Assembly (NCBI RefSeq): GCF_000516985.1
Contig: NW_006917092.1
Location: 5,396,021 to 5,460,020, forward strand
Reading direction: 5' to 3'
DNA: 64,000 nt
Origin: Pestalotiopsis fici W106-1
Lineage: Eukaryota > Ascomycota > Sordariomycetes > Amphisphaeriales > Sporocadaceae
Shown piece by piece: positions 995 through 43,682 of this stretch. Both the position numbers and the translations under genes were made by a program. Below the pieces are notes generated by a model. That model was not told the origin of the DNA. It saw only the letters and a program-made list of their open reading frames with translations, and did not search any database. Every line of letters begins with the position of its first letter. Within the stretch, counting starts at the first letter, position 1.

Positions 995-3130
995 TTGCAA
1001 ACTGCAGTGAAGATGCTGCCAAATAGTCGAGGATGCGTATCTGGACATGCTGATGGCAGTGCTGGTCCTCATCCTCGTGCTGGTTTCATGATATCGACTT
1101 TGAAGCTGAGCCAGTCAGCCAGAAACGGATGCCTTTGGTGTACCATCTATTGGGAGGCCTTCAAACGTATTCAAGGCAATCGCAGACCAGAAGATCAGGA
1201 ATTCATCTACTGGAGATACAATGATGAAAGCTTTTTTGAGCCATGGTATCAACCTGGCGACGTCAAGATACAAATCTACATCCAAGGTAAGTTGCATTTT
1301 CAGCTCGGGAACAGAATACCATTTACATGATGAGTGGCATCTAAACTAATGTGTACCACTATAGACTCTCGGGAAGATTTGAATGAAGATTTAGTATGTC
1401 AATTTCCTGTCAAGAATGTCCTTAGTGACAAGACAGACTCCGACGCCACTTTGACGCAGATTAAAAAGTGGCAGGCCGATTGTTTCACCAGTCATGGGAC
1501 GTGCCACCCTGCAAACTCAAATACCTTGCTCCCCAAGCGCTGCATCGATGTCAGCAATGAGAGCACCATCCAGATTGTTGAGCGTGGTGACAATGCTCGG
1601 GCACAGTACATGTGCCTCTCGCACCAGTGGGGCAAAGAAGAAATGCCCCTCAAATTGACAAAGGATACCAAGGATTCCCTTTTCTCCGGTATCAATGCAA
1701 ACGAGCTCCCCAAAACCTTCCGAGATGCTGTGAGTGTCACCAGACGACTAGGATGCCGTTATCTCTGGATTGATTCTCTCTGTATTGTGCAAGACGACAA
1801 AGATGACTGGGAAGAAGAAGCTGCGAAGATGGCATCGGTATATTTCAACAGTCTTCTGACGATCGCCGCTGCTGCCTCATCAGGCCCAACAGATGGTCTT
1901 TTTGAGTCCCCAGATGTACGACTCATGGACAACTTACCCCTCGAGTTAGACCAGTCGGTTCTCCCATTCCCCGTGTACGTTAGATGTGAGCCGCGATTTG
2001 AGGTCGGTCATTTGGCTGGAAATGAGGAGTGCGGCCTATTGGATCGCGGCTGGGTGCTCCAAGAACGACTTCTCTCTCCGCGAATCGTCTTTTTCGGGGC
2101 GAACGAGGTTTCTTGGGAATGCATGTCCTGCAAGGCATGTTCTTGCGAGCCGATATTCGCCCCATACAGACTCCAACAATATTCACCGCGAGAGCCGATG
2201 AACCCTAAAGCTGCATTCTGCCAAGCCTCCAGCAACGAAGGTCAGGCGCAAGGTATGGACGACGGACGACTCCTGGAGGCCTGGCACAATGTCGTCAATT
2301 CATACACCGGACTTCGCTTGACCAAAGCCACAGACATATTTCCTGCTCTAGCTGGCTTGGCTAAGCAAGTTAAGACAACACGGGGTAATGACCAGTACAT
2401 GGCCGGCTTGTGGAAAGACACAATTATGCATGACCTTCTGTGGAGGAGGCGTGTATTCGGTGACTGGAACCAGTCTATCTGGACCGACCATTATGACCTA
2501 CACAACTGTCTCGATGGCGGGGATCGGGGCAAGAGAAAGTTTCATGCAAGAGTGTGGGACCAGGACATGTCTGAGATCCGAACCCAAAAAACACTCAAAC
2601 ACAGAATCGCACCTTCTTGGTCTTGGGCATCGCTTTATAACCAGGTTGAGTACGACAGAGAGACGAACTTGCGCGACTTCAACTTGATTGATCTTGAGCT
2701 TGCGAAATTGGTCGGGGTCGACTGTGAGCACAAATATGAGACCGGCGCTCTGGAAAGCGCGGAGAACTCGTTCATTCGCATCAAAGGGAAGACAGCCGAG
2801 GTGGAGCTGCGGCATGTAATGGTTGGCAACGATTTTGAGTCTCGTCTCATGTCGAATGGCTGTGTCATGCCTTTCTCAGGAATAGATTTAACATTCCCGA
2901 GAAGACCTCCGCAGGACGGCACGGCATTGACTTGTCTACTCATTGCCACAGGCAAGATCAAGGAAAGAGTTCATATGAGAAGAGAACTTGGCCTCGTGTT
3001 GCTTGCCCAGGACGACAACTCGAAGCCTTGCCATTACCGAGTCGGCATGTTTTCCCACTCGTACCAGATTGGGAAGGAATCTTCTGTATTCGACGCTGTG
3101 CAAAGTACTAGTCTAGTCCAGATATTCTGA
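995..3130 (+). CDS. HET-domain protein (heterokaryon incompatibility type)
   Basis: Two exons (995-1286 and 1365-3130) give 685 residues. The 78-bp intron 1287-1364 has a GTAAGT donor and ATAG acceptor and keeps phase 1. Exon 1 carries the usual pre-HET signature (SARNGCLWC). The HET domain lies at about residues 178-260, with LSHQWG, YLWIDSLCIVQDD and MASVYFNSLLTIAAAAS. The tail has the common late motif APSWSWAS. HET proteins act in non-self recognition and trigger cell death in Pezizomycotina; that is family knowledge and the specificity here is unknown. The start is uncertain: the ATG at 995 is the first in frame, and one at 1013 is also possible. It is convergent with the kinase-ankyrin gene downstream. 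Confidence 0.88.
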
Positions 3131-3586: not shown

Positions 3587-6500
3587 CTAAATAGCAGTGT
3601 CAAGAGTCGAATGTGGTATGTCCAGCCCACCTATATCATTAGCATCATTCTCCTGCAACCCTGTCGTGTAATGAAAGTCATCATCGTAGTTTCGCAGTGT
3701 GAAAGGATAAACGTCGGGCCCGAATTTGGTCGCTTTGTAGCGGAGCATTAATGTGCCCAAGGCTTCTGTCATCTTCGCATCGATATCTCTAAGCTTCAGT
3801 ATCAGAGCCTGCTTGTCGAGAGAATCCAAGCCTTCCATGCTTCTGCTTCTCTTCAATATACAAAATACGACATCTTTGGACCTGGCCGCAAAACTGTACT
3901 GAAGAGGCGTTGCTATAGACTGTGGCATACCTTGCGGATCTGCGCCCGCTTTCAGAAGAGCTTCTGTCATAGGTACGGAGTGGAAGGCGACGGCCAGATG
4001 CAACGGCACCAAGTCTAATGGGAGAGGGTGATTGGGATCCGCTTTTTCTTCCAAGAGCAAGTCCACAATCTCTGGTTTACTCTCCATGATTGCGACGTGT
4101 AATGGTGTCAAGCCAAGGGAATCCTCTGTTTCAACCGAAACCCCTTGCTTGAGAATACTCTTGACATCCACAAGGTCCCCGCTCAGAATTGTATCTCTCA
4201 GCTTCCTGGCGAGAGAGTCAGTGTGGGGGATGTCTTCGGCAACCTCTTTCTCTTTTCCCTTTCTCTTGCGCTCATGTGCACGCTGAAGGCGAGATCTCTT
4301 CGTATACTCGACAAAATTTCGTAATATACGACGGCTTTCTTCCTCCCACCATCGAACTTGTGGCCTGTCTTGTCCTAGTGTACCGCGACCTGCTGGGTTG
4401 AAGGCATCTCTTTCGGTTTCGGCCGCTGCATTACCAGGCCAAGGCTCTTCCTCTGTAGAGGTCCAGGTTCTGAGTGTCTCCATGATCTCCATGACTGCTT
4501 GGCTCACTCTGGGGAGCTCTGTGTCTCCGCCTCCCGCTGTCTGCGGAAAAGAAGGGCCTTCTTTCACTAGCCCGATTTCCGACAATCGCTTCGGCCATTT
4601 GCCTACCAATTCGAAGGGTCCAATTGAGATCGGACTCCGAGGATGTGAATTCTTACGGTTCTCTTCATCAGGCGCTTCTGTCTTTAAATAAGACATGAAG
4701 GCCATGAGCTGGAAGATTTGTTTTGAAGCTTCCGGGTCACCGAACACCCTTCTGGCGCCTTTCGCCTTGAACAACTGAAGGATCGTATGAAGGTCATTAT
4801 ACCAGTTACACACCGCGATGGAGCCGCCTGAAGAGATCTCTGGAGGCTCTGGTGCAGTGGCTTTTAGCGTCGCAAAGTCAACGGCTGTCATATGAGATAC
4901 AAACTCGCTGTAGTCTGGGAAGGAAGAAGATTCAACGGGGGCGTTGACATCCACATTCAGTTCTCTGCGGTGAAGCAGCATCTGAACAATTTGTACATGT
5001 CCAAAGCAAGCTGCAATATGCAGAGGGAGCATGCCGTGCAATCGGCAGATGTTGATTTGTGACGAGAAATCTTCCAGGCTCAGAAGAAACTCCATCATCT
5101 CGAGGTCGCATCGCTGATCGAACTCTTGCATTGGTCGAGGGCGATAGAGTAAAAAGCTCCAGACAGGCATAACCGCCTCACGGCCAGGTACGATGGAAGG
5201 TGCTTTTATGAAGAAGTGTAAATTAGAATGGCGAACAATCCATCGAAAACTCTCGATGAATCTCAAGTCCCGTCGGCTGATCCAGTCAAACCAAATGGGA
5301 GACTGCCAATAGCCGACGCATCCTGTGAATGCGTCTTGGTTGTCCCTTTGAGCGTACGAATTGATCAGATCCGCCGCTGCGATGTTTTTCCGGGCCAGGG
5401 CGTGCACCAGGGGTGTGAAACCCCGTTCGTCCAAGCCCTTCCAGTCCGAACCCGACTCCAGTAATGAGCGGACATAGAGAATGTTCGGAGAAGAGCAGGC
5501 GAAATGGAGGGGACCGCCTTGCCAGCAAGATATATTGTCTGAGAAGCACCCAGGAAAACTATGGAGCAGGAAACTGAAACAGTTTTGGGCATCATTAGAA
5601 ATCGTGACCGACCAGATCGGCAACAATCGTAGAGATATTGTTATATCGCCAACGACCATTGTTGGGTTCTCATTCTCGAATAACCAGTGATCAAAAAATG
5701 CGACTGTCCACGAGAATTCTTCGTCTTCGCGCATGCTCCTCTGCTTATCCTCAATGATCAATTGTAAGGCATCGACATCGTCGCGCCGAATTGCAAGGTA
5801 TATAGACATTCGACCGCCCCACGTCAGGAGTGTTTCCAAAGTTGCTTTGCGTGCTGTCCTCCAATCTGGTCCATGCCTGATCTTCTGTTGGAATACTTGA
5901 TCGATTGAGCTAGATGACGTTTCTGTGGAACCGGCGGAAGCGATCAGTGTGGTGAGAAATGGCTGAATATCTGTCGGGATGGGTCGGTCAGGATCGGCTT
6001 CCCACATGCTGTGATTGTCCTGCTTGAGTAGTAGCAGAGCCTCCATTAGTTCGTGGTATAGGAAGATGGCACTCAGTACCAAGGCCCCTGGGAAGTCGGG
6101 AACAGGAGTATCATGCTCAATATGCAGGCAGAAAATCTCCAGTGCTAATCTCTTCTTCCCACGAAGTATGGACCATGAGAGAGCAGAGCCGTGGAAATTG
6201 GTTGAAATTGCGTAAAGTTCGACAGGCGCATCCGGAATCAGGCATTTGGTGAGGAGTTGAAGGCGAGCGCCCTGCGAGACTGAAAGCCTGGCGAGGCTAG
6301 TGGCTTCAGCGTCTGACAGTCGTGATTGAGCAAGTTTGAACAGGAGAGTTTTGCAGTCCTCTTTCGCCATCGTCTGTATGTGTTGTTCGATCTCTTCGAT
6401 GGCGCCAATTTTAAAGGCGTCCTCAAGGCTGAGAGGGAATCCACCATTATACTCCTCGCAATGTTCAATGTCGTGTAATTCTTGAGCATATGGAGGACAT

Positions 6501-8621
6501 GTGTTCCTGAACAAAACCCCTGGACTCGAGGTTGAAGCATGAAGAAATGCACGCGACAATTTGCGCATGATTTCTCGAATTGTCTTGAAGACATCGGGCC
6601 AGCGGTCGGCAAGACATTGCAGCGCCATATGGGAGCCCGAAAGCGTGAGAAGACAGAGGTTGAGGCGTAGTGGGAATTGCGATTCAAGTTTGCTTCCCAT
6701 GAGGAGAAACGGTGCCATGTATACACACTCTTGTATGCCCTGAGATGCCGCAATATGCATCCACTTATGACTTCGAAGACCATCGTCATCGTTGGCGCTG
6801 ATGGATTCGAATTCCAAAGCTGCCACGTACTTGGCAAGTTGTGTTTGCACCCGGAAATCCCCGTGGCCACGAGCGGCATTTGAGATTGGCTGCGTCCAGG
6901 GGCTAATACCCTGAAGTGCCGCACATAATAGTACGGAGATAATCAAGTCTAGTGACCCTTGAGCAGCATTTTCTGCAATGTCCAAAACTTGTTTTGCAAT
7001 AGCGTGAAGATGCTCAACTGTATCAGATGACTCGGAAATGCCGATGGCTTGGCCTTGCGAGTAGATGCTCCTGATATCTTCTTCACATCGTTGGGCGATG
7101 ATCTTCTTGATCAACATACCATCGCCCTCGACGACAAAATTTGGCCATAGACGCTGCCAGAAGTGCTCGTTAGCTGGGGTCAGATTAGGCGAAGTGATGC
7201 TACGTACCGATCCTGGTCTTGAAGTCCTAGCATGGTCCGGAGACTCCGGCGAATTCTGAGAGTCCAATGTTTCCTGTCTGCATGGAAAATCAATATCCAA
7301 GAAGCCTGATAGTTCAAGAAAATATAGTGCACCGACATTAGATTGCGTCCAGTAATGCTTGCCAGGTCATCCAGAAGATCAATCAACTGTTCAGGCCTTT
7401 TGCTGGGGTCAACTTGAAGAATAGGCGTGAGTATGTTCATGATCATAGACTTGTCGTCTGGTGCAATAGTGTCAAGCCTCTGATCTAGTGCAGATAATAC
7501 TCTGTTAGATTCTGTATCGCATTTCATTAATGTGATGATATCCTCGCCCATCCCTTCAGTATCAGGGTGAGGTATGAATGCCGACAGGAAACATGATGAC
7601 GGGTTTATGAGTCTGCCTCCACCATAGCTTCCGCGATCGGGGTATTTAGCCCAGAGGCTTGCCACAACGAGGCCATAGGTGTAGATATCAGCTTTCCGCC
7701 AATCCGAGGTAGTATCCGAGAATGGTATGATGAGTTCTGGGGCACACCAAATACGCGTAAAGTGAACTGGATTCGTGTGATCCTGGACTTCTACACTCCC
7801 GCCAAAATCTGCAATCTTGGCAATTAAATCTCGCCGAGGATCCGAATAGGCAGACACAATATTGTTTGCTGGCTTGATATCGCCGTGAACGAAGCCAGCT
7901 TGATGAATAGCTTGCAGACCGGAGGCAATATCAAGCGTTATATACTGTTTCTGTAATCTGGTCGGCGTAGATCCTGGCGTCCTGATGATGTGATCAAGAG
8001 AACCATGTGTTCCTAGTTCTGTAGCAATCATGGGATAAGGACTGTCCGCACTCCAGCCTATGAACAGGAGCGCGACCAGGTTGGGATGGCCTGAAAGACA
8101 AGGATGGCTAAGCACTTTCAGCTCACGGATTATGTGGCCATACACAGATTCGCGATCCTCACGGGAAGGTGTAAACAATCTACTCGAACCCGGATTAAGA
8201 TCAATGTTCGTTGTTCTCGGAAAATGTGTAGTTGCAGTATGAAGCCTTACTTGAATACTTTGAGCGCTACGATAGTCCGATCCGACGCAGTCTCAACATT
8301 GAAACCGATGTGGCCATTGATAGCGTGCATCCCCACTTCGGAGGTAAGTCCCCCCCCAAGTGAATATACATTTCTGCTAGATGTCGGAGTGAAACGGAAT
8401 CCCACTTCGGGAATTACTCTGGAAGGGGTCCCAGAGTCTTTTATCGTGGACAGAAGATCGTGGAGGTTCGAGTTCTGGTATCTCTGATGCCGGCTTGAGT
8501 GACTGCTCCGTTCTGAGCCAAGTTCGAAACTTCCTTGATTGCCATCGGGCGTAGATGATTGGAGAGATATGGATGAAAGGAGTGTCGCCACTTCCGACTC
8601 AACTCGACTAGATTGTTCCAT
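3587..8621 (-). CDS. Serine/threonine protein kinase with ankyrin repeats
   Basis: Three exons (8621-8251, 8179-7333, 7273-3587) join in frame to 1634 residues. Intron 8180-8250 is phase 2. Intron 7274-7332 (phase 0, GTGCAC donor) is less certain. The N-terminal kinase looks active: VALK lysine near residue 121, helix-C Glu near 143 (HIIREL), catalytic loop HGDIKPAN with Asp near 224, DFG near 248, and CAPE near 272. A long helical region of about 1,200 residues follows, with ankyrin units such as GGPLHFACSSPN, GMLPLHIAACFGHVQIV and, near the C-terminus, GLTPLHVAIMESKPEIVDLLL. No membrane segment is seen. It diverges from the HeLo/pseudokinase gene across 656 bp, so a shared promoter and pathway are plausible but inferred. 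The overall plan recalls animal RIPK4/ANKK1 (kinase plus ankyrin), though a shared origin is not implied. Confidence 0.88.
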
Positions 8622-9277
8622 AGTCAGAATGGCAATGAATGTTACTGAATTATAGCTGTCAAAGTCGTCCTTTTGCTAGCTCCATTATGTCAAGCTTATT
8701 AGGGCCAGAGGATCAAAGGATGGGGAGCAGGAGGAGACGAGAGGCGTTGAGTAGAGGAGAGAGGGGTAGGCGCCACTGGGATGGAATTACGAAGAAGGCC
8801 GCCGCACATGCTCCTTTCCTGCCTTGCAATCTATGTTTCCGATTGGAGTTCCATCCCGTCCTTCACTGCACTTCCAAGTTTTCTACTTAATACATGTATG
8901 TCTAGATACATGACCTGCGTGTCGATATGACTCTACGCCCGGCGTCTGAGGCGGGAGTAAATTAAGGTTTTGCGGCATGGGCGATATTGAAGTTTAATAC
9001 CGCCCGATGCCACGGAGAGGAAGTACTTGGGCACAATTGCCATGAGATTATGTAGACGAGAATTGCCAACCACATATTACCTGCTCAGACATCTACAGGT
9101 ACCTGCTTAAACTAGTACAATATGCATAGCTGATCATACCTTGGGACTCTTAAAGTTGCAAGGAGTGGTTTCGGGACGCCACTACATAATGCGCATCGGG
9201 CGGGCACCTCCTGTTGTTGAGCGAGCACCCAATCCATCTATGACAACTCTTCAGCCACTGCTCTCCCACAAGACAAT
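8622..9277. promoter_or_regulatory. Shared divergent promoter region, kinase-ankyrin / HeLo-pseudokinase
   Basis: These 656 bp separate the two start codons of the divergently transcribed pair. No open frame with recognisable sequence is present. Both promoters and 5' leaders must lie here, so co-regulation is possible. That is inferred from the arrangement; no specific operator was identified. Confidence 0.5.
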
Positions 9278-10924
9278 ATGTCCGTCGACCCGATTTCGCT
9301 TGCATTAAGTACTGGTGCTATTGCACTTGCTCTGAAAGGCGCTATTGACACGGCCCTGTTCGTTGAGTCGTTCTTCGATAGAGATATGATAAGTTACGGC
9401 TATCTAGAAACTTGTTACAGCACTGAAAGAGTCTGGCTACAGATTTGGCGGGAGACTTGCAACGTCTGCGAAAATAATGATGGCATCTTGCAGGAGAAAC
9501 CAGAGTACCTGAAAAAACAGGTGATTCACATTCTCAATACTGTCCATGATTTGAGCCAGGACGCCAAAAAGATGATCGACAGATATCAGATTGTCGCTCC
9601 GGAAACTTCAGTCAAAGATTTGAACAAGGTCGTCAAGTCCGGACATCCATCACAGACCAAGAATGTCGCCGATTTGAGACCAAACTCGAGGGTAAGATGG
9701 ATCATCAAGGGCAGGGCCGAGTTCGAGCAGATTATACGCCGATTTCGTGAGCAGAATCGTGACCTAGAAAGACTGACCCTCGGGCCTGGAGCGCGGGATG
9801 GATTAGCCTCGCGTGTCGTTTCCGGGATCCCAGAGTCTAGTCTCGCAGGGTTTGCTCAAGGATTGCATATCGTGCCCAAAACCAATATTGCGCTTGCAGC
9901 TTCAGTGAAGGCTCTTCAGCCATCATTAGAAAATCAGACCCTTACTTCAACTCAGTTGATGGGAGAACGACTCAAAATGGTTGGCCCGCAAAGCACTCGA
10001 GACTCGGCAACAGGAATGTTATCATTGGCGGACGGAAGCCAGGCACCCGTTTGGATCGAGTGGATCATACTGGAGGATGGACAAAACAGCAACACCAACG
10101 CCTACATCAGCAGGATCAATTCTCTGGGAGGACTATTGGAGCGGGTCGGTGATCCTATGCTACATCTCCTCCCATGCCATGGCGTCTTTCGCGATACAAA
10201 CTATCAACAAAAATATGGAATCCTTAGGCTAGGCTACGTCTTTGGTGTGCCGCAAGGAAACGACTACGAAAGCGATCTTGTTGAGAGCCCGCCAATATCA
10301 CTGAGACAGCTCATTGACGGATCAAATGATACCGATAATCGCGGTCGACTGCCGAGACCTTTCCTTGGCGATCGATTTCTACTCGCCTACGATTTAGCGG
10401 CATCTTTCGGTCTTTTCCATGCCGCTGGATGGCTACACAAGGGTCTTCATGCCGGAAGTGTGACCTTCCTCCAGAGGTCTACGCAGCGCTCCTCAGCCAT
10501 AGAGTTGCGGGATCCCTTTGTGACAGGCTTCCAGTATTCCCGTCCACAATCAAGTGAGTCTCTCTCTCGTGGACCACTTGAAAACAAGGACCTCGACTAT
10601 TATTATCACCCGGACGTTGGAAGAGGCTTTACCAAGCGCAGAGATCTGTATGGTTTAGGTGTTATCCTGCTGGAGATAGGTCGCTGGGGTCTTATAGCCG
10701 ACGCTGTCAGCGAAAGGAACCGGCCTCAAGATCGCCAAGCTTGGCACACTTTCCTAATGAAAAAGGCCGTTCCAGATGTAGGATGGAGGATGGGAGAAAG
10801 ATACGAGAAGGTGGTTCGCGTGCTATTGGAGTGCAAACTGCCAGGAGACGAGCACGATAAGGATTTCTATTTCCAACAATTCCAGGAAAGGGTACTCGAG
10901 CCCTTGAGCTCATGTAGTGCTTGA
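9278..10924 (+). CDS. HeLo-domain protein with C-terminal pseudokinase
   Basis: A single intron-less frame gives 548 residues. Residues 1 to about 205 resemble the HeLo (HET-s N-terminal, prion-inhibition) helical domain: a short hydrophobic start (ISLALSTGAIALALKG), then FFDRD, then Tyr/Leu/Cys-rich amphipathic helices. HeLo domains permeabilise membranes and execute fungal cell death (family knowledge). Residues about 250-548 follow a kinase fold but are catalytically degenerate. The VAIK position reads VWIEW, HRD is replaced by HKG (387-389), DFG by RDPF (411-414), and only the later Y-HPD and LYGLGVILLEIGRW helices are well kept. Domain order equals that of MLKL. It diverges from an apparently active kinase-ankyrin gene. 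The ATG is taken as the first in frame. Confidence 0.82.
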   Translation: MSVDPISLALSTGAIALALKGAIDTALFVESFFDRDMISYGYLETCYSTERVWLQIWRETCNVCENNDGILQEKPEYLKKQVIHILNTVHDLSQDAKKMIDRYQIVAPETSVKDLNKVVKSGHPSQTKNVADLRPNSRVRWIIKGRAEFEQIIRRFREQNRDLERLTLGPGARDGLASRVVSGIPESSLAGFAQGLHIVPKTNIALAASVKALQPSLENQTLTSTQLMGERLKMVGPQSTRDSATGMLSLADGSQAPVWIEWIILEDGQNSNTNAYISRINSLGGLLERVGDPMLHLLPCHGVFRDTNYQQKYGILRLGYVFGVPQGNDYESDLVESPPISLRQLIDGSNDTDNRGRLPRPFLGDRFLLAYDLAASFGLFHAAGWLHKGLHAGSVTFLQRSTQRSSAIELRDPFVTGFQYSRPQSSESLSRGPLENKDLDYYYHPDVGRGFTKRRDLYGLGVILLEIGRWGLIADAVSERNRPQDRQAWHTFLMKKAVPDVGWRMGERYEKVVRVLLECKLPGDEHDKDFYFQQFQERVLEPLSSCSA

Positions 10925-30483: not shown

Positions 30484-32421
30484 CTATACAAGTTCCAGCC
30501 ATTTCACCTCTGAATTGAATTTGTGCAGTGTATCGAAAGAGACTTCGAATCCATAATCACTTGATGAATTATGGAGACGCTCTCTTTCCTCTTCAGTCAG
30601 CGGCAACGTGGACAGACGCGGATCATCCATTGTGATCTCTTTCGTCTGACGGTCTCTGAACCCCAATTGGTAGCCTTTTGCTTGATCTCTCACATAGATT
30701 GCTTCAACTTGCGTGGGCAGAGGACCCAAGATTGCTTGCTTTTCCATGGCGCCGGTTAGAAAACACTGGCCAACCACTTGCATCCCCTCACCTGCGTTTC
30801 GCAAGACTAGAGGGCAATCGCAGCCTACGACGCTGTACACATGATCTCCTACACGTGCCGCTGGAGGCGCCATTCCAACGTAGCCATTGCTGCCCTTCAG
30901 TAGTTGTCGATTAACACAAAACATCCGTACGTCAAGTACCGATCCTTTCTCAAGTGATGAATCCTTCTGAGGAGGGAATGCCGAATAGGCCAACCGTATG
31001 AACCTTGACATATCGTCAAGTGAAGAACACTCGAAGCTTTCCGGTTTGGTAGTTGTTTCAAACTTTCCACGAGCGATAGTCGTCGCATAAGCTTCGATTA
31101 AAGTCCCTCCCGCAATGTAATCACCTTCGAGTTGAAGTCCGTCCAGTAGGTCATGGAGTTTACTCATCAAATTGGTCGTATCTGAGTATATTTCCGAGGG
31201 ACGTAGATCTTTAATCGTGGTAATTTTGGTTCCAGCAACCCTCAAAGCTCCTCTGGTAGCCTGACTTATGTCCAGGACTGCTGCCAACTGCGAGGTCTTT
31301 GATGTCATAATCATCATCGGCATAAGTTGGGAATCTGTGCCCCAGTTCGGTACCCAGGTAGGAAACCACCGGTTCTGAAGCTCGCATTCTTGTAAAATGG
31401 ATAAGTCACGGTAGGCTTGAATCCATGCGAGTGTAGCATCTTTGTATAATTCCTCCGGCTGCTTCTCGTAGTCGACGCCGATCAGCCTCTTCTCAGCTTT
31501 GGGCAGTAATTCCAGAACTGCAAATAAGCGATCGCGGGGATCTAAACATTGCAGCCCTGCAAATGAATCTCTTAGGTTCCGGAGTGATGGATCACGATTC
31601 TCATCAAGCCACCATGAGGCGCGCCATAGGTCCGGTAGGTACTGAGGCTGTAGACTGTTGGTTTGCGAAAAGTGAAGGTACAGAGAAGTCCAAGCGCAAA
31701 GGAAATCTTGAGAGGACACTCCACAACGGCCGCACATGATCGTAGCCTTATTTCTGCTTAGCACAATCTCTTGCCTGATCCATAATCTTTTAAACCAGGG
31801 CCGAGTAAAAAGTTGGTACGTTTTATCCTGGAGAGGGATGTCTATCAAGAGATCGCCATTATCATCAACCAAGCGCATTCCACGCCACTTGTGCCGCCGT
31901 ATGGCCTCGGTATTAACTCTCCGTATGTCCCAGTCGATCACCACATTCTTCCCAATGAACTCCAGGTATTCCATCATTTCGGTGCTTCCGTCTGTTTCCG
32001 GACCGATGTAAGCGACGACATGAGCTGCGCGTTTGAAAATATCGCCAATTTTAGAAACCTGGACAGCCTTTTCCTCGTGACTCATTTGGTTGATACATAC
32101 AGCATCAATCCACATTGTCCGTGGATTATCATTTCGACGAAGATCGTACAAGGCTATGGCGAGATTTTTGCTTAATCTTATTCTTCGTCCAGTATGCCCA
32201 AGAGCCGGGATACTGTCATTTATTTGTCGAATCTCGGCATCAACACATGGTTCGGGCGAGCCCCACGCATAAGATAAAGCCTCGTAATTTACTGGTTCAG
32301 AATCGGCAAAAGGCACGATTGCAAGGTCGATAACAAGACCATCATCTGCTTCCCCGGGCAGAATCGTCGCCGTTCTGATGTAATTTCCGCCCGGGAGAGG
32401 GTCGTATTGGTAATCGTCCAT
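30484..32421 (-). CDS. HET-domain protein
   Basis: An intron-less frame gives 645 residues. The HET domain occupies about residues 45-190: YEALSYAWGSPEP, then TMWIDAVCINQMSHEEKAVQVSKIGDIFKRAAHVVAYIG, and later RPWFKRLWIRQEIVLS. The post-HET block is present as LDPRDRLFAVLELLP. The C-terminus has the usual VGCDCPLVLRNAGEG and VGQCFLTGAM segments found in full-length members. It looks intact, unlike the relic at 26747-27217. Its role in non-self recognition is a family inference. The ATG at 32421 gives the common MDDYQYDPLP start, so it is preferred. Confidence 0.92.
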   Translation of the reverse strand: MDDYQYDPLPGGNYIRTATILPGEADDGLVIDLAIVPFADSEPVNYEALSYAWGSPEPCVDAEIRQINDSIPALGHTGRRIRLSKNLAIALYDLRRNDNPRTMWIDAVCINQMSHEEKAVQVSKIGDIFKRAAHVVAYIGPETDGSTEMMEYLEFIGKNVVIDWDIRRVNTEAIRRHKWRGMRLVDDNGDLLIDIPLQDKTYQLFTRPWFKRLWIRQEIVLSRNKATIMCGRCGVSSQDFLCAWTSLYLHFSQTNSLQPQYLPDLWRASWWLDENRDPSLRNLRDSFAGLQCLDPRDRLFAVLELLPKAEKRLIGVDYEKQPEELYKDATLAWIQAYRDLSILQECELQNRWFPTWVPNWGTDSQLMPMMIMTSKTSQLAAVLDISQATRGALRVAGTKITTIKDLRPSEIYSDTTNLMSKLHDLLDGLQLEGDYIAGGTLIEAYATTIARGKFETTTKPESFECSSLDDMSRFIRLAYSAFPPQKDSSLEKGSVLDVRMFCVNRQLLKGSNGYVGMAPPAARVGDHVYSVVGCDCPLVLRNAGEGMQVVGQCFLTGAMEKQAILGPLPTQVEAIYVRDQAKGYQLGFRDRQTKEITMDDPRLSTLPLTEEERERLHNSSSDYGFEVSFDTLHKFNSEVKWLELV

Positions 32422-34625
32422 ATGGGGATCCGAGAAGGTAATGGCTGAGATTACAATTTGTCATTTTGCGGTGCTTTCGAGCATGGCGACTCGACGGGAA
32501 CAAAGATTTATAATATAGGCCAAGCCCACCTTCATATTTGAATGAAGGATCAGCCTTACGAACGCTGCATCGGATTCTGGTCATGTTCCGGATCTTTGCT
32601 TCTAATTTCGTCACACCGCCCTGTTCGCCTTCTTCCCTATGCATGACTGCTACGCTTTGAGTGCCTGCAAGGATGATAAGATCTCACCAAGCGAGTGTGC
32701 ATGAGCGGCACGCACCGCTAATAATAAACCACACAAGTCAAGTGGCACAGCAGAGATCCCTGTGCAGCCAATAGTCAGCCGCCATTGACCTTGATTTTTT
32801 GTCAATGATTTATTGGGTCAGGTGTCTTGGCACCTTGGCTCTTGGGTCAATTTGGCTTGGCAATCTCGCCCATGTCAAAGAGCAATTCTCTTAGCTCGCA
32901 AGGCATCAATCGTCTTGTCTACCATCTGCGTACCATTGTATAAGGCCATAAATCATCAAATAAGAGTTTTGTTCCAAAAAGGCATATCTTGTAGTTCATT
33001 TCCCATCAAGAGTAACCTCTGTACACTGGATCTCTTGTGTGTTCAAGTAGTCGATATAATTTATTCAAGTCTGGACGTTATCCATCGTGCGGATTAAGGG
33101 CGGTAGTAAGTTAATACGATCAAGCCTGCATACTTCCACGATTTCAAACTAGTTTAGTCTCAACCCAACCCTTTTGTTCGACAGATGTTCAAATGATCAT
33201 ATGTGAATATCTCTGTCAATTTTTTATAATAACCTACACAAGGCTTGATTGTATAAATAAGACAGCGCTATATAAGAGAGGTTTGTGAAAAGATATGATA
33301 GGTATGGGTAATAGTTGATGTATTAGTTGAGTTGTTCACATCCAACAGAGGTTGGATGGTCAAAGATATATACACGTGTGGAGAAGCGCTCCACTTATTC
33401 CTACATTTTGACAAGGTTGACATCTCTTGCCACGTACAATACACATCGGCGAGAATCGAGTCGACAAAGAGTGTTAAAGTGGTGTTTCTGCGGGAAATGA
33501 GTTTTGATTACATCAAAGTGAATGTATGGCCAGGGTTGCATGTGATTGTGTTAATATTGATGTGACATTCATAGTGGCTAATGGATAAAAAGACTATGTA
33601 GTGTGGTGAGCGGGCTACACGTTACTATAACTATCACAGGCTTTTACGAAAGCGGCCCCTTTTCGCCAGGTACCTAACCTTAGGTATGTCCTTCAGCCGC
33701 CAGAGCAGTACCTAGGTAAATTGCGGGCGACGTGAGCATTTTGACCGCTACCGAGACAATTAAACGGCAGAACTCAGTACCTACTTACCTAGTCTTCGTG
33801 GCGCTGAGTCAATCCTATTTCTTATAATCCATCGGTTTCTCTAATTTATAGCCAGATTTGCCAAGCTATCGCATTCAGTGAATCAGCATCGAAAGTATGG
33901 CTGATGCGCCACAAGTGGCTGGAGCCTGTGGCGATCCGTATGCAGCCTTATAGCTGTTGGTTGCACGGGAAGGGCTTTAACTTCCCGTTGTGTGCACAAA
34001 TTTGTTTCTACTGAAAGGAGCATCATGAATTTCATCTGTATTTCTTCGGTACGGTCGTATCAATGGCTTGAGCAGAATTTGTCTGATTTGACGCTGAAAG
34101 CTGGCAATAATGAGGAGAGTATGAACTTGGAAATTGAATTATTCAATATTCAGAGGAATGCATCACGATATTTATTCAAGTGCTCTGAACAATTTCATCG
34201 TGTCGGTCGCTCGGAATGAAATTGAAAAGAAAACTGTTGAGATGTTAAAGTGCAACAGTATACCTGTCGACCCACCATACGGCTTCTTAGGCAACGTTTG
34301 TAAATATGGACGTCGTGATGCACGTCAGGAATCGGGGCGGGGTGGTAGGCGCAATGTGACGTGCAGTCTCGCAAAGTCCTGCCCAAACTCGACAAATTTG
34401 GGGGCGGAGCCTGAATCTGTAAGTACAAATGAGTAATCGATTGATTTGAACGCATGGGCCCAAGCCACTTCATGTCCAATCGTTTCTGCATGATGCATGG
34501 CCCCATGCCAACCACAGCCTCGTCATTTAGAATCAGGCTTTAAAATTCATCACTTTTCCGCAAAGGTAGAAGAATCTATCCCCGCTCGCACTTGTAATCC
34601 ATCAACTTCGTGGATCTACATCACC
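32422..34625. other. 2.2-kb divergent intergenic region between two HET genes
   Basis: No gene is supported. It contains a copy of a polyketide-synthase 3'-end repeat at 33723-33814. The long GC-poor stretch may hold both HET promoters. Confidence 0.5.
33723..33814 (+). repeat. Detached copy of a polyketide-synthase gene tail
   Basis: This matches the end of the PKS relic at 41392-41519: GCGGGCGACGT, AGCATTTTGACC, CTACCGAGAC, ATTAAACGGCAGA and TAGTCTTCGTGGCGCT occur in the same order. This copy lacks about 45 bases between the first two blocks. No upstream PKS sequence is attached. Confidence 0.72.
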
Positions 34626-36719
34626 ATGGCGTCCATCTATACAGCCCTCGATATCTCGAACTACGAAATTCGTATAATCACGATCCATCCTGGCGACGAT
34701 GACACAATAATAAGTTGCACACTGCACAAACAAAGTCTCCTCGCCGAACAAGAATACACGGCGTTATCATATTGTTGGGGCGACCCCACAGTCACTGACC
34801 ATATCATTGTCAACGGCGAGCGCGCGGCGGTGACCATCAATCTACGAGACGCGCTACTACAGCTCCGGAACATTGGGGTAGAGCGAGTATGGGCTGACGC
34901 CTTGTGTATCAACCAGGAGGATATTCAGGAAAGGAGTCTGCAGGTTCGCCATATGGCCCAGGTATATGCCCGCGCAGTTCGAACGTATGCATGGCTTGGA
35001 AAAGAAGGATCTGATCACGCCATGGCCAGTCTAATATTTCTCCGTCAAATAATGTCGGCCGGCATAGAAATCGATGGCATCGAGCACATGCATATGAGCG
35101 AGGTCGATACCGGCATCGATCTCGACGTGGCCTCCGCGTGTCCGTCTTGCTTAGCTAAAGCATCCTTTCAAGATCTAAAGGATCTATTTTGTCGCGAGTA
35201 CTGGAGGCGCCGCTGGGTCATCCAAGAAATTGTTGCTGCCAGGCGGGTACAAGTTATCTGCAGCAGGGAATCCATTGATCTAGGAGATCTGATGGATGCT
35301 CTTGAGTCATGTAAGAAGTCAAAACAATGGTCACCAGACTTGATCAGCTGCTGCAAATATCTGCAACAGATAATCGATATACGCTTACAATACCAATCTG
35401 GGCGACCGCAAACTCTGTGCGAAAGCATGGCCATCACGCAGCACTTTTTGTCTAGCGACTCTCGAGACAAAGTTTTTGCTCTGATTGGTATCACCTCCGA
35501 CGGCGGACGTCTGGTGCCAACCCCAAGCTATTACCAGGATTTCGAAACGATGCTGACGGACCTGGCCGCAGCCGTTTTTCGGGAACATCGTAACTTCAAC
35601 ATGATGGTACTGGACCGTCGCAATAGGGCAGCTACCCCAGGACTACCCACTTGGGTACCGGATCTTCCAGTGGAAGATCCAAAAGATCTTTCGAGTATCC
35701 TCCATACCGAGTTACTTGACTCCCGTCTTCTTGAACGAAGTCTGTCAGGCCCTCCGGGCACACTCAGGGTGCAAGGAGTCATTGTCGGAGTCATAGTCGC
35801 GACTTCATCTGTGCTGAAGAATGTCCCGCTAGGGATATCCACGGCGGAAGTGAGCTCGAACGATACTATCAGTACAGCAACACCTCTAACGCAGCCACAA
35901 GAATACTACGGATCATCGAGCAAAACATTAAGAGTCATACTTGCCATGCTCTCGTTACCCATCGAAGACGCCTACATGAATAATGAACGATCCCAACTAA
36001 TGACGCAATCTGTAATGCCATGGAATGAACATGATAGACTGCACCGCCTGCGAATGGTCTTACGTCATACCAACAGGCCATCTCTAGCCAGCCTGCAAGA
36101 GTGGATTGACACCAACAAGGCTTTCTTTTTGGGCAAAAAGTCTTTATCGGAGTGGCTGGCTGAAGGCAAAATCAGCTACTATTATTGCTGGTTGAAGAGC
36201 ATTCCGATACGTTTATGGATGATTTTCTTTCCACTTTCTGTTGCTTCCATGCCAGCAATTGTGGCCACGTCCTGTTTCTTTTTAACCCCGCGGTTCTTTA
36301 TACCTATTATACTATGTTCTTTTGTCTCATTCATTTGGGTGATTGCGTCGGCTTTCATGTTCGTTGGAAACTTCCCATACTTTCAATTAGCCAAGATATT
36401 GGAGTCTAACGCAAAGAACCGAATGCGGATGATATTGTGCAGCAAAGGGTTGATCGGTATGAGTACTGCTGATGCTCAATGTGACGACCGAGTATGCCTA
36501 CTTGTAGGTTGCTCAACCGCGGTGGTGCTTCGCAAGAATATCACGCAGCCAGGAGACAGTTATGCAGTGATCGGGCTAGCCAGCATCGCTTTAGTTCGAA
36601 AGGATTATTCCAGGTACCGACCACTTATTGGAGCGATTCGTTATGGCCATGACCAAGATGATCGGCATATTAATAAGCTCCAGAAACTCCCAGAATGGCG
36701 GGAATTCACTCTAGTATAG
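34626..36719 (+). CDS. HET-domain protein with two C-terminal membrane helices
   Basis: An intron-less frame of 697 residues starts at an ATG in a good context (TCACCATGG). An in-frame ATG at 34497 would add 43 residues of poor composition. The HET domain spans about residues 45-190: YTALSYCWGDPT, then RVWADALCINQED, VYARAVRTYAWLG and YWRRRWVIQEIVAAR. The post-HET SSDSRDKVFALIGI follows. At about residues 525-590 two long hydrophobic segments occur (RLWMIFFPLSVASMPAIVATS and FFIPIILCSFVSFIWVIASAF), and the protein then returns to a soluble C-terminal region with LVGCSTAVVLRK. Most HET proteins are soluble, so a membrane-tethered form is notable. No decay is seen. Confidence 0.9.
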   Translation: MASIYTALDISNYEIRIITIHPGDDDTIISCTLHKQSLLAEQEYTALSYCWGDPTVTDHIIVNGERAAVTINLRDALLQLRNIGVERVWADALCINQEDIQERSLQVRHMAQVYARAVRTYAWLGKEGSDHAMASLIFLRQIMSAGIEIDGIEHMHMSEVDTGIDLDVASACPSCLAKASFQDLKDLFCREYWRRRWVIQEIVAARRVQVICSRESIDLGDLMDALESCKKSKQWSPDLISCCKYLQQIIDIRLQYQSGRPQTLCESMAITQHFLSSDSRDKVFALIGITSDGGRLVPTPSYYQDFETMLTDLAAAVFREHRNFNMMVLDRRNRAATPGLPTWVPDLPVEDPKDLSSILHTELLDSRLLERSLSGPPGTLRVQGVIVGVIVATSSVLKNVPLGISTAEVSSNDTISTATPLTQPQEYYGSSSKTLRVILAMLSLPIEDAYMNNERSQLMTQSVMPWNEHDRLHRLRMVLRHTNRPSLASLQEWIDTNKAFFLGKKSLSEWLAEGKISYYYCWLKSIPIRLWMIFFPLSVASMPAIVATSCFFLTPRFFIPIILCSFVSFIWVIASAFMFVGNFPYFQLAKILESNAKNRMRMILCSKGLIGMSTADAQCDDRVCLLVGCSTAVVLRKNITQPGDSYAVIGLASIALVRKDYSRYRPLIGAIRYGHDQDDRHINKLQKLPEWREFTLV

Positions 36720-41859: not shown

Positions 41860-43682
41860 TTAGGGAGCAAAATACTTGTAGGTGGCTTGGACTGGGGCCA
41901 CAACCTCATTGAAGAAATCGAGCCGGAAAGACTGCAAATTGAAGTCGTGCATGTCACGTCGGCCCGGAAAATCCCCATGGATACATCGCTGCGCAGCGTA
42001 GCCGTAGCCACGGCCGACTGAATCATAAACCCTTTGAACCAATTCATCCGCTATTTCAATGTCATCAGGTACAGCACTGTTCGCTGCCCTCTGCGACAAA
42101 CTTGTGCTTCTGAGAGACTGAAAGGAAGTATCAAGGCATAGCTCGATTAGCAATACTCCCAAAGCGAAGAGAGTCTTGTTGATGCCCCTCTGGATGTGAA
42201 ATGTCTGAATTCCACCATCTGCCGCCGATCGATCATTGTTTCCAAGCCAGCCTATAGCAGGCAACTGTGATACATAGTTATCAATGGACGGCTTTTTAAA
42301 GATGGAAATGTCATCGATCCATTCCCAGTCGGGAGCCAGCCAGGGAGTTTCAGCCAGATAGAGCACACCCCAGCACAAGCCAGCAGACACAGCCAGTCTC
42401 TCTGACAACGAGGCACGCGGAATATGGCCCCTTGACGAGCGTAGCCGTTTGCTGCTAGAAAGTAGACTTTTGAGTTCCATCGGGACTTCCTGCGGTGAAT
42501 CCAATCGATCGTGTTTGATGATTATACGGCTTTTGTTCTCTGCCATCCCCAACACGAATCGGCTGTCCGAAGCGGTTTCATCAATCAGGGAGCACAGGCT
42601 CCCGATTTCCCGATACGCGGATAGAGGCCTCTCCAAGCCAGCAACTGTCAATGCGTTAGTTTTTTCCTCTGCGCATAATCATATCAGAAGGTCTATGTTT
42701 TCCTTACCCGCAAGGGTTGCACTCGGCGTTGAAGGCACTTTCCTTCTAAACACAGACTGCAAGCGACGTGAGATACTGTGAGACTTCTTGGTGCTGACTG
42801 GAGTTTCGGTATTCACGTGTTGGCTTGAAGTAGAGGTAGTAGCTGAAGAGCTTGCAATCACCTCGCCATCATGGACTTCGACAACAAAGCTGTGCCAGAC
42901 AAGCGGGCTCTTAGGCTGGCTCTGTCCCGGGGTTATTGCAATGGGCAGTATATCGATCTGCGGCTGATCATGCTCATGCCATGAAAGTTTCAGATTTCCC
43001 TGATGACAATGAGCCACATCTTTGCACTTCCACGCACCCTGTACTGCACGGAAAACGGATCGAGCGTTCTGCCTTGTCTTGTCGCATCGGTCGATGTCGA
43101 ACCCATTCTTGACTGTGGAAAGGGTAGGTGTCTCTTTCGTTGAGGTGATTCCCACTTCTGGCGTTTGAAAACAATTCGTCAATACGTTGTTCCAATATTG
43201 GAGCTGCTCGGCGAAAGTCCACGTCTTCATGTGGCTGATGCTCCTTTTGACTCGTCGCCATTCGTAACGGGCTCGATCTGATGTGTCGTTGAACCATGCA
43301 GGCTTCGATGATCAGCGAACTTGACAATAAAAGGCTCCATGCAAAGAATACTCACCTTTCCCCGGGAATCAAGTTCCATCTTCTTCATCATCTGCGCCGC
43401 TATTTTGTCCATCTGGCGGATAATATCCAGGTAGTTTTCATGCTTTTCTGGAAATCGTCTTCGCAACTGCATTTCCAGATTTTGTTGTGTGGGGTCCACG
43501 AGATTGATTAATTTGAGTGTCCTCCTCAGTTGTTCGTCCTGGGCGAAGACCTGCAAGCGGATGTCGTGCAGGATGCTTTCGTAATGCCAGTAGTTCTTGG
43601 ACAACTGTGCTACCGTGTCATAACTCTCAATTGCAGAAAGAATGAGGGGCAGAGCCCCCAGTACCAGGCCCGCGACCTCCAT
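41860..43682 (-). CDS. DUF7580-type protein (fungal incompatibility-associated)
   Basis: Three exons (43682-43356, 43302-42708, 42644-41860) give 568 residues. The introns (53 and 63 bp) have GTGAGT/GTAAGG donors and matched phases. The N-terminus reads MEVAGLVLGALPLILSAIESYDTV, the usual start of this family, followed by YHESILHDIRLQ-type helices. Mid-protein motifs are YEWRRVKRSI and NARSVFRAVQGAW with CHQGNLKLSW. The C-terminal block is LAVSAGLCWGVLYLAETPWL and LFALGVLLIELCLD, a kinase-fold-like piece without catalytic residues. Family members are widespread in Pezizomycotina and often sit near incompatibility genes; no molecular role is established that I know of. It diverges from the AAA ATPase over 322 bp. 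An in-frame ATG at 43934 would extend it without family support. Confidence 0.85.

Follow-up and report, generated by a model that had tools for sequence, protein, structure and literature searches.

Repeated head-to-head linkage of B-type pseudokinases to kinases in Pestalotiopsis fici and a candidate kinase-triggered HeLo cell-death module

We analyzed a 64-kb stretch of the genome of the fungus Pestalotiopsis fici W106-1 (contig NW_006917092.1, positions 5,396,021–5,460,020; hereafter, the window), in which a gene for a kinase with ankyrin repeats (gene A, 3587–8621, minus strand) and a gene encoding a HeLo domain N-terminal to a pseudokinase (gene B, 9278–10924, plus strand) are arranged head-to-head within ∼8 kb. 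The start codons of the two genes are separated by 656 bp (8622–9277), as a preliminary description of the window had stated, and this common intergenic region may act as a bidirectional promoter. The arrangement recurs: across the genome, the linkage of B-type pseudokinase genes to kinase genes is repeated and non-random, a conclusion that is well supported. By analogy with known systems, A and B could form a two-gene, necroptosis-like module in which a kinase triggers cell death, a reading to which we give an even chance.

A search of the 51.7-Mb genome with B as the query identified at least 13 B-like loci. Kinases were located with a Pfam search, which gave 133 matches that merged into 109 genes; since 122 of the 206 candidates on the kinase list were scored, the kinase counts are lower bounds. 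A kinase lies head-to-head within 4 kb at seven of the 13 B-like loci, including the pair in the window, and kinase and pseudokinase are fused in one open frame at two more (C1 near 2.669 Mb and C7 near 3.526 Mb). The same arrangement is found at none of the controls, which are 21 other DUF7580 loci and three HeLo loci without a B-like match; at one of the 21, a kinase in a different orientation lies within 4 kb. The chance of a head-to-head kinase is ∼0.004 per locus, and the binomial P for seven of 13 loci is 4e-14, a value that overstates independence as the pairs are related and may descend from few ancestral pairs. Chance linkage between B-like genes and kinases is rejected by this genome-wide test. 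The link between A and B, which had been proposed from their architecture and placement at a single locus, is thus borne out by seven head-to-head pairs and two fusions, together with contigs of equal size in three of the five species that have an orthologue of A (see below).

Gene B is intronless, with its ATG at 9278 and an open frame closed by a stop codon (9278–10924); the model of a single exon encoding 548 residues is supported by the reading frame, Pfam matches and relatives. The N-terminal region matches the HeLo family (PF14479) over residues 40–167 with an E-value of 1e-10 and 42.2 bits, compared to a cut-off of 23.2. A profile built from 55 B-type sequences matches the structure of the HET-s HeLo domain (2wvn) with an E-value of 1.7e-12, and a profile restricted to the N-domain of B matches HET-s with an E-value of 1.2e-12. 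The match spans residues 1–215/216 (9278–9925) and includes a hydrophobic N-terminal helix at about residues 5–30. This helix is present in the predicted structure at low confidence (block predicted local distance difference test score, pLDDT, of 51–68), and the most hydrophobic 17-residue segment of B starts at residue 3. Judged by these sequence profiles, on which the assignment rests since a fold search with the isolated domain gave nothing usable, the N-terminus of B is related to the HeLo domain of HET-s. Of two alignments of B relatives, one (A2) includes 54 of 58 sequences, leaving out P0045 (an amidase fusion), P0046 (without HeLo) and the distant P0060 and P0061, and the other (A3) includes 21 of 25 picked sequences, leaving out four with odd N-termini.

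The remainder of B (residues 220–548; 9935–10921) is a predicted kinase fold, which begins at about residue 220 and ends with the last residue of the protein; DUF7580 (PF24476) matches residues 332–492 within it (E-value 1.1e-7, above the cut-off). The position of the VAIK lysine, placed by eye at residue 261 (10058–10060), is a glutamate in 54 of 55 aligned sequences and a glutamine in one. The HRD motif reads HKG (10436–10444) in all 55, the DFG motif of B reads TGF (10523–10531), and none of the 54 rows covering the DFG aspartate position has an aspartate. Ser428 (10559–10561) is invariant. The Pfam matches and the 55-sequence alignment therefore agree with the preliminary description of B as a HeLo-type N-terminus joined to a kinase fold that has lost its catalytic motifs and, as in MLKL, the killer-type helical domain precedes the pseudokinase. 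Membership of B in MLKL itself could not be upheld: the B profile matches MLKL chains with E-values of 0.014–0.041, with IRAK4 and LIMK1 at similar values, among 60 of 111 matches. A C-terminal prion-forming domain such as that of HET-S is absent from B, in which the kinase fold reaches the C-terminus.

Gene A starts with the ATG at 8621 and encodes 1634 residues in the present model, which draws on splicing, a public protein and Pfam. Its three exons (8621–8251, 8179–7337 and 7277–3587) are separated by introns of 71 and 59 nt, both GT..AG. The second intron (7336–7278) was adopted because it keeps the reading frame and because the same 59-nt splice is used in the public protein of gene A, PFICI_03815 of P. 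fici W106-1 (99% identity over 89%); the frame is broken if a single second intron with its end at 7174 or 7154 is assumed instead. PFICI_03815 begins at a later methionine and, as a result, is without the kinase N-lobe that bears the ATP-binding lysine. It also lacks 18 residues of our model, which correspond to a further in-frame 54-nt intron (7207–7154), if real. The kinase domain is recognized in the exon-2 frame (PF00069, E-value 2.9e-23) and ankyrin repeats in the exon-3 frame (Ank_2, E-value 6.4e-26). Exon 3 (3587–7277) encodes a long linker and the repeats, is collinear with an orthologue from Penicillium concentricum, and may constitute the sensor half of the protein. The Pfam scan of the exon-2 and exon-3 frames returned kinase and ankyrin families only, with no NACHT or NB-ARC match, and these domains are also absent from five orthologues (four scanned with Pfam and the fifth, from P. 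concentricum, by its listed families).

The catalytic motifs of A extend from the VALK lysine (K121, 8261–8259) to the APE glutamate (7737–7735), with the αC glutamate at E143, an HGD in place of HRD at residues 222–224 (7887–7879), DFG at 248–250 (7809–7801) and APE at 270–272. The catalytic lysine, the αC glutamate, HGD, DFG and APE are invariant in A and all five orthologues. By its motifs, the product of gene A is a catalytically complete kinase and, with the Pfam matches, this confirms the preliminary description of complete kinase motifs and ankyrin repeats. A specific likeness of A to RIPK, also suggested there, is not borne out, as the closest solved structures to its kinase part are LRRK2 and Roco4 and no RHIM core was found by pattern.

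The other pairs differ in what accompanies the kinase and the pseudokinase. Pfam recognizes a HeLo domain in three pairs: that of the window (pair 1), C9 near 88 kb (pair 2) and C3 near 581 kb (pair 3). In pairs 4–7 (C9 near 475 kb, C6 near 974 kb, C10 near 149 kb and C3 near 3.136 Mb), the C-terminal half is pseudokinase-like and the N-terminus is unassigned. A HeLo domain suggested by eye from the short first exons of pairs 4–7, whose starts are hydrophobic, was not supported by Pfam or profile–profile comparison, and these are counted as pseudokinase pairs only. In pair 2, whose kinase is the closest paralogue in the genome of the kinase part of A, an ankyrin and Sel1 frame lies downstream of the kinase frame on the same strand; the kinase of pair 4 has as its neighbor an open frame encoding a BAG domain (E-value 1.6e-9); and in pair 5, the kinase frame is followed by a weak AIG1/GTPase-like part (E-value 0.0078, below the cut-off). 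In each of these three cases the frames may be separate genes. Beside the paired loci, the C1 fusion gene (∼2667–2673 kb) is tail-to-tail with a second kinase, the next frame being TPR-like by eye, and a locus on C9 at ∼2567 kb (L066) encodes a HeLo domain and a B-like pseudokinase in a frame exceeding 980 residues, with an extra C-terminal part.

The kinases fall into three groups, consisting of pairs 1–2, pairs 4–7, and pair 3 with the two fusions. The pseudokinases of pairs 4–7 group together and mirror their kinases; elsewhere, the best-scoring match of the pair 1 B protein is the C1 fusion, and that of the pair 2 B protein is its counterpart in pair 3. Divergence of all partners in step is therefore borne out by the group of pairs 4–7 alone. 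That pairs 4–7 clearly form one family would fit a history in which a two-gene block was copied repeatedly and its two proteins do not cooperate. We consider shared ancestry as the sole explanation very improbable, however, as the three kinase groups keep the association even though the B proteins compared share only 20–37% identity, as fusions exist, and as co-location on contigs of equal size is seen also in Penicillium and Trichoderma.

The search with A returned 22 matches, comprising gene A itself, five full-length orthologues from other fungi (E-values below 1e-150) and 16 weaker matches that are kinases, ankyrin proteins or kinase-ankyrin proteins; in a search of public proteins with A, nearly all of the best 120 of 177 matches were animal ankyrins. 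In three of the five orthologue species, an A orthologue and a B relative reside on contigs of exactly the same size: 10949136 bases in P. concentricum, 3799710 bases in P. robsamsonii and 481453 bases in Trichoderma ceciliae. The T. ceciliae case is the strongest, and that of P. concentricum is weak evidence because its contig is 10.9 Mb long. The contigs differ in Xylaria flabelliformis (416053 bases for A and 110824 bases for B), where the names suggest different assemblies, and no B relative from Annulohypoxylon truncatum is among the matches listed. Co-location on one contig is thus supported in three species, in which the two genes may also be adjacent, and the A-B arrangement is probably kept in other fungi. 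A lack of conserved linkage, which the preliminary description had named as a refutation, was not observed: the linkage recurs within the P. fici genome and, for the other species, co-location is deduced from contig size and adjacency is putative.

If A and B act together, gene A could be the switch, whose linker and ankyrin half would sense a non-self protein or damage and turn on the kinase domain. B would then be the executioner, with a HeLo domain that is restrained by its pseudokinase domain. Activated A might bind or phosphorylate B, possibly on the activation segment around Ser428, and the N-terminal helix of the HeLo domain would be released, allowing B to assemble in the plasma membrane and causing the death of the hyphal compartment. 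The release and killing steps are modeled on RIPK3-MLKL and HET-S.

Signaling could also run in the opposite direction, with the pseudokinase allosterically activating the kinase and the HeLo domain bringing the complex to the membrane, in which case the output would be the phosphorylation of other targets and not a pore. Activating roles are known for some pseudokinases, such as STRAD in the case of LKB1, and the C1 and C7 fusions, which combine kinase and pseudokinase in one chain, would also fit. The HeLo domain of HET-S, on the other hand, attacks membranes and its relatives are hypothesized to do likewise, according to the accessible part of a 2025 review (PMC12881547), and we regard this reversal as unlikely.

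Several observations weigh against a kinase-triggered HeLo module, in addition to the relatedness of the pairs described above. Four of the 13 B-like loci have no kinase match within 6 kb. The possibility that their kinases were missed by the Pfam search was rejected with tblastn, as kinase queries from A and pairs 2–6 found none in the 8.5–9.5 kb of DNA, mostly on the 5′ side, tested around each. No HeLo domain is recognizable by Pfam or profile–profile comparison at the N-termini of pairs 4–7, and the B proteins of pairs 1–3 and the fusions, as compared by sequence, do not closely mirror their kinases. The isolated N-terminal 205 residues of B were modeled with low confidence (pLDDT 70.5) and a Foldseek search with this model gave no solved match at an E-value of 0.001, neither HET-s nor MLKL being listed, so that the proposed HeLo assignment stands by its sequence profiles and not by its structure. 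RIPK3 is not among the best 60 of 2080 structure-profile matches of the kinase part of A, and the RHIM core pattern is missing from A and five orthologues, where a divergent motif could escape it. Co-location in other species is deduced from equal contig size, which is weak evidence for the 10.9-Mb contig of P. concentricum. Finally, the direction of signaling, the phosphorylation and the death are functional claims that we infer from sequence.

The four B-like loci without a kinase would suit a scheme in which B works with another activator, such as a NOD-like receptor (NLR) or a HET protein, the kinase being a bystander or modifier and the HeLo domain perhaps not killing at all. Known HeLo effectors are indeed switched by NLR-borne amyloids, as the available text of PMC9815663 describes for the well-studied fungal HeLo killers. 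Neither the RHIM core pattern nor the fungal PP core pattern matched A, B or eight relatives, however, and there is no space for a C-terminal amyloid domain in B, since its kinase fold continues to the last residue. We consider this scheme improbable.

Within the window, 10 frames surrounding the pair were scanned with Pfam. HET-domain (PF06985) genes are located at 1334–3130 (plus strand), 30484–32460 (minus strand) and 34494–36719 (plus strand), the first of which is tail-to-tail with gene A and ends 456 bp from its 3′ end. Another DUF7580 gene (41860–42678, minus strand, possibly with 42679–43311; E-value 1.6e-11) has no kinase match within 6 kb, and its genome match reads through one TGA, which may reflect an intron or a broken gene. 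With three HET genes and a further DUF7580 gene, the region looks, by its gene content, like an incompatibility or immunity neighborhood. The HET genes, the divergent adjacent pairs, and the scattering of B relatives over distant genera would also fit a guard function, in which the kinase keeps the HeLo-pseudokinase off and its loss or mismatch, through heterokaryon incompatibility or a parasite, frees the killing activity; A and B would then more closely resemble a locus of the poison-antidote or allorecognition type. We view a guard as rather unlikely: the intact catalytic motifs in A and its five orthologues and the long, sensor-like half are accounted for at least equally well by a switch.

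Among known systems, MLKL and RIPK3 resemble B and A in that a protein with a helical, membrane-attacking domain N-terminal to a pseudokinase is paired with a separate, catalytically active kinase. The orthology of B to MLKL is not established, however, the A and B genes are adjacent, and the kinase of A, unlike RIPK3, is joined to ankyrin repeats. We know of no adjacent paired kinase gene for the plant MLKL-like proteins, no search having been aimed at one. These also combine a four-helix bundle with a kinase-like domain and act in plant immunity, according to the accessible parts of PMC12881547 and PMC10951266. The HET-S/NWD2 system of Podospora anserina likewise consists of two neighboring genes for a putative sensor and a HeLo effector, but B has a pseudokinase in place of the C-terminal amyloid domain and its partner is a kinase-ankyrin protein with no NACHT match. 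The accessible text of PMC12881547 describes fungal death pathways as often being clusters of two or three genes, among them gasdermin-protease clusters, in which the executioner adjoins the gene of its activating enzyme, a protease there versus a kinase and a pseudokinase here. A figure legend in the same review shows fungal HELL domains joined to kinase or pseudokinase domains, an architecture similar to that of B, with no neighboring active kinase gene or head-to-head pairs described in the part available.

The HeLo-(pseudo)kinase architecture is thus already in print; the pairing with an active kinase gene appears to be the new part, and it has a fair chance of representing a class of its own. 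We recognized no printed report of such a pair among the papers listed in a search that left most subscription papers and all preprints outside its scope; it is not mentioned in the accessible parts of PMC10197012, PMC5485727, PMC9815663 and PMC12258605, and DUF7580 is not mentioned in the literature searched. More tentatively, and with somewhat less confidence than in the module itself, we suggest that filamentous fungi may have a whole class of immune modules made of two genes, one for an active kinase whose sensor half is exchangeable and the other for a helical-domain pseudokinase that is coupled to this kinase and executes the response. The exchangeable halves would include ankyrin, ankyrin/Sel1 and perhaps GTPase-like or BAG-bearing parts. 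Such a class would provide, in one divergent gene unit, a phosphorylation-triggered counterpart to the amyloid-triggered NLR/HeLo route, and could reflect ancient necroptosis-like signaling. The extent to which necroptosis is conserved in fungi is posed as an open question in the accessible text of PMC12881547. A HeLo protein switched by a kinase, if true, would bear on that question and would greatly narrow the distance between fungal cell death and RIPK3-MLKL necroptosis.

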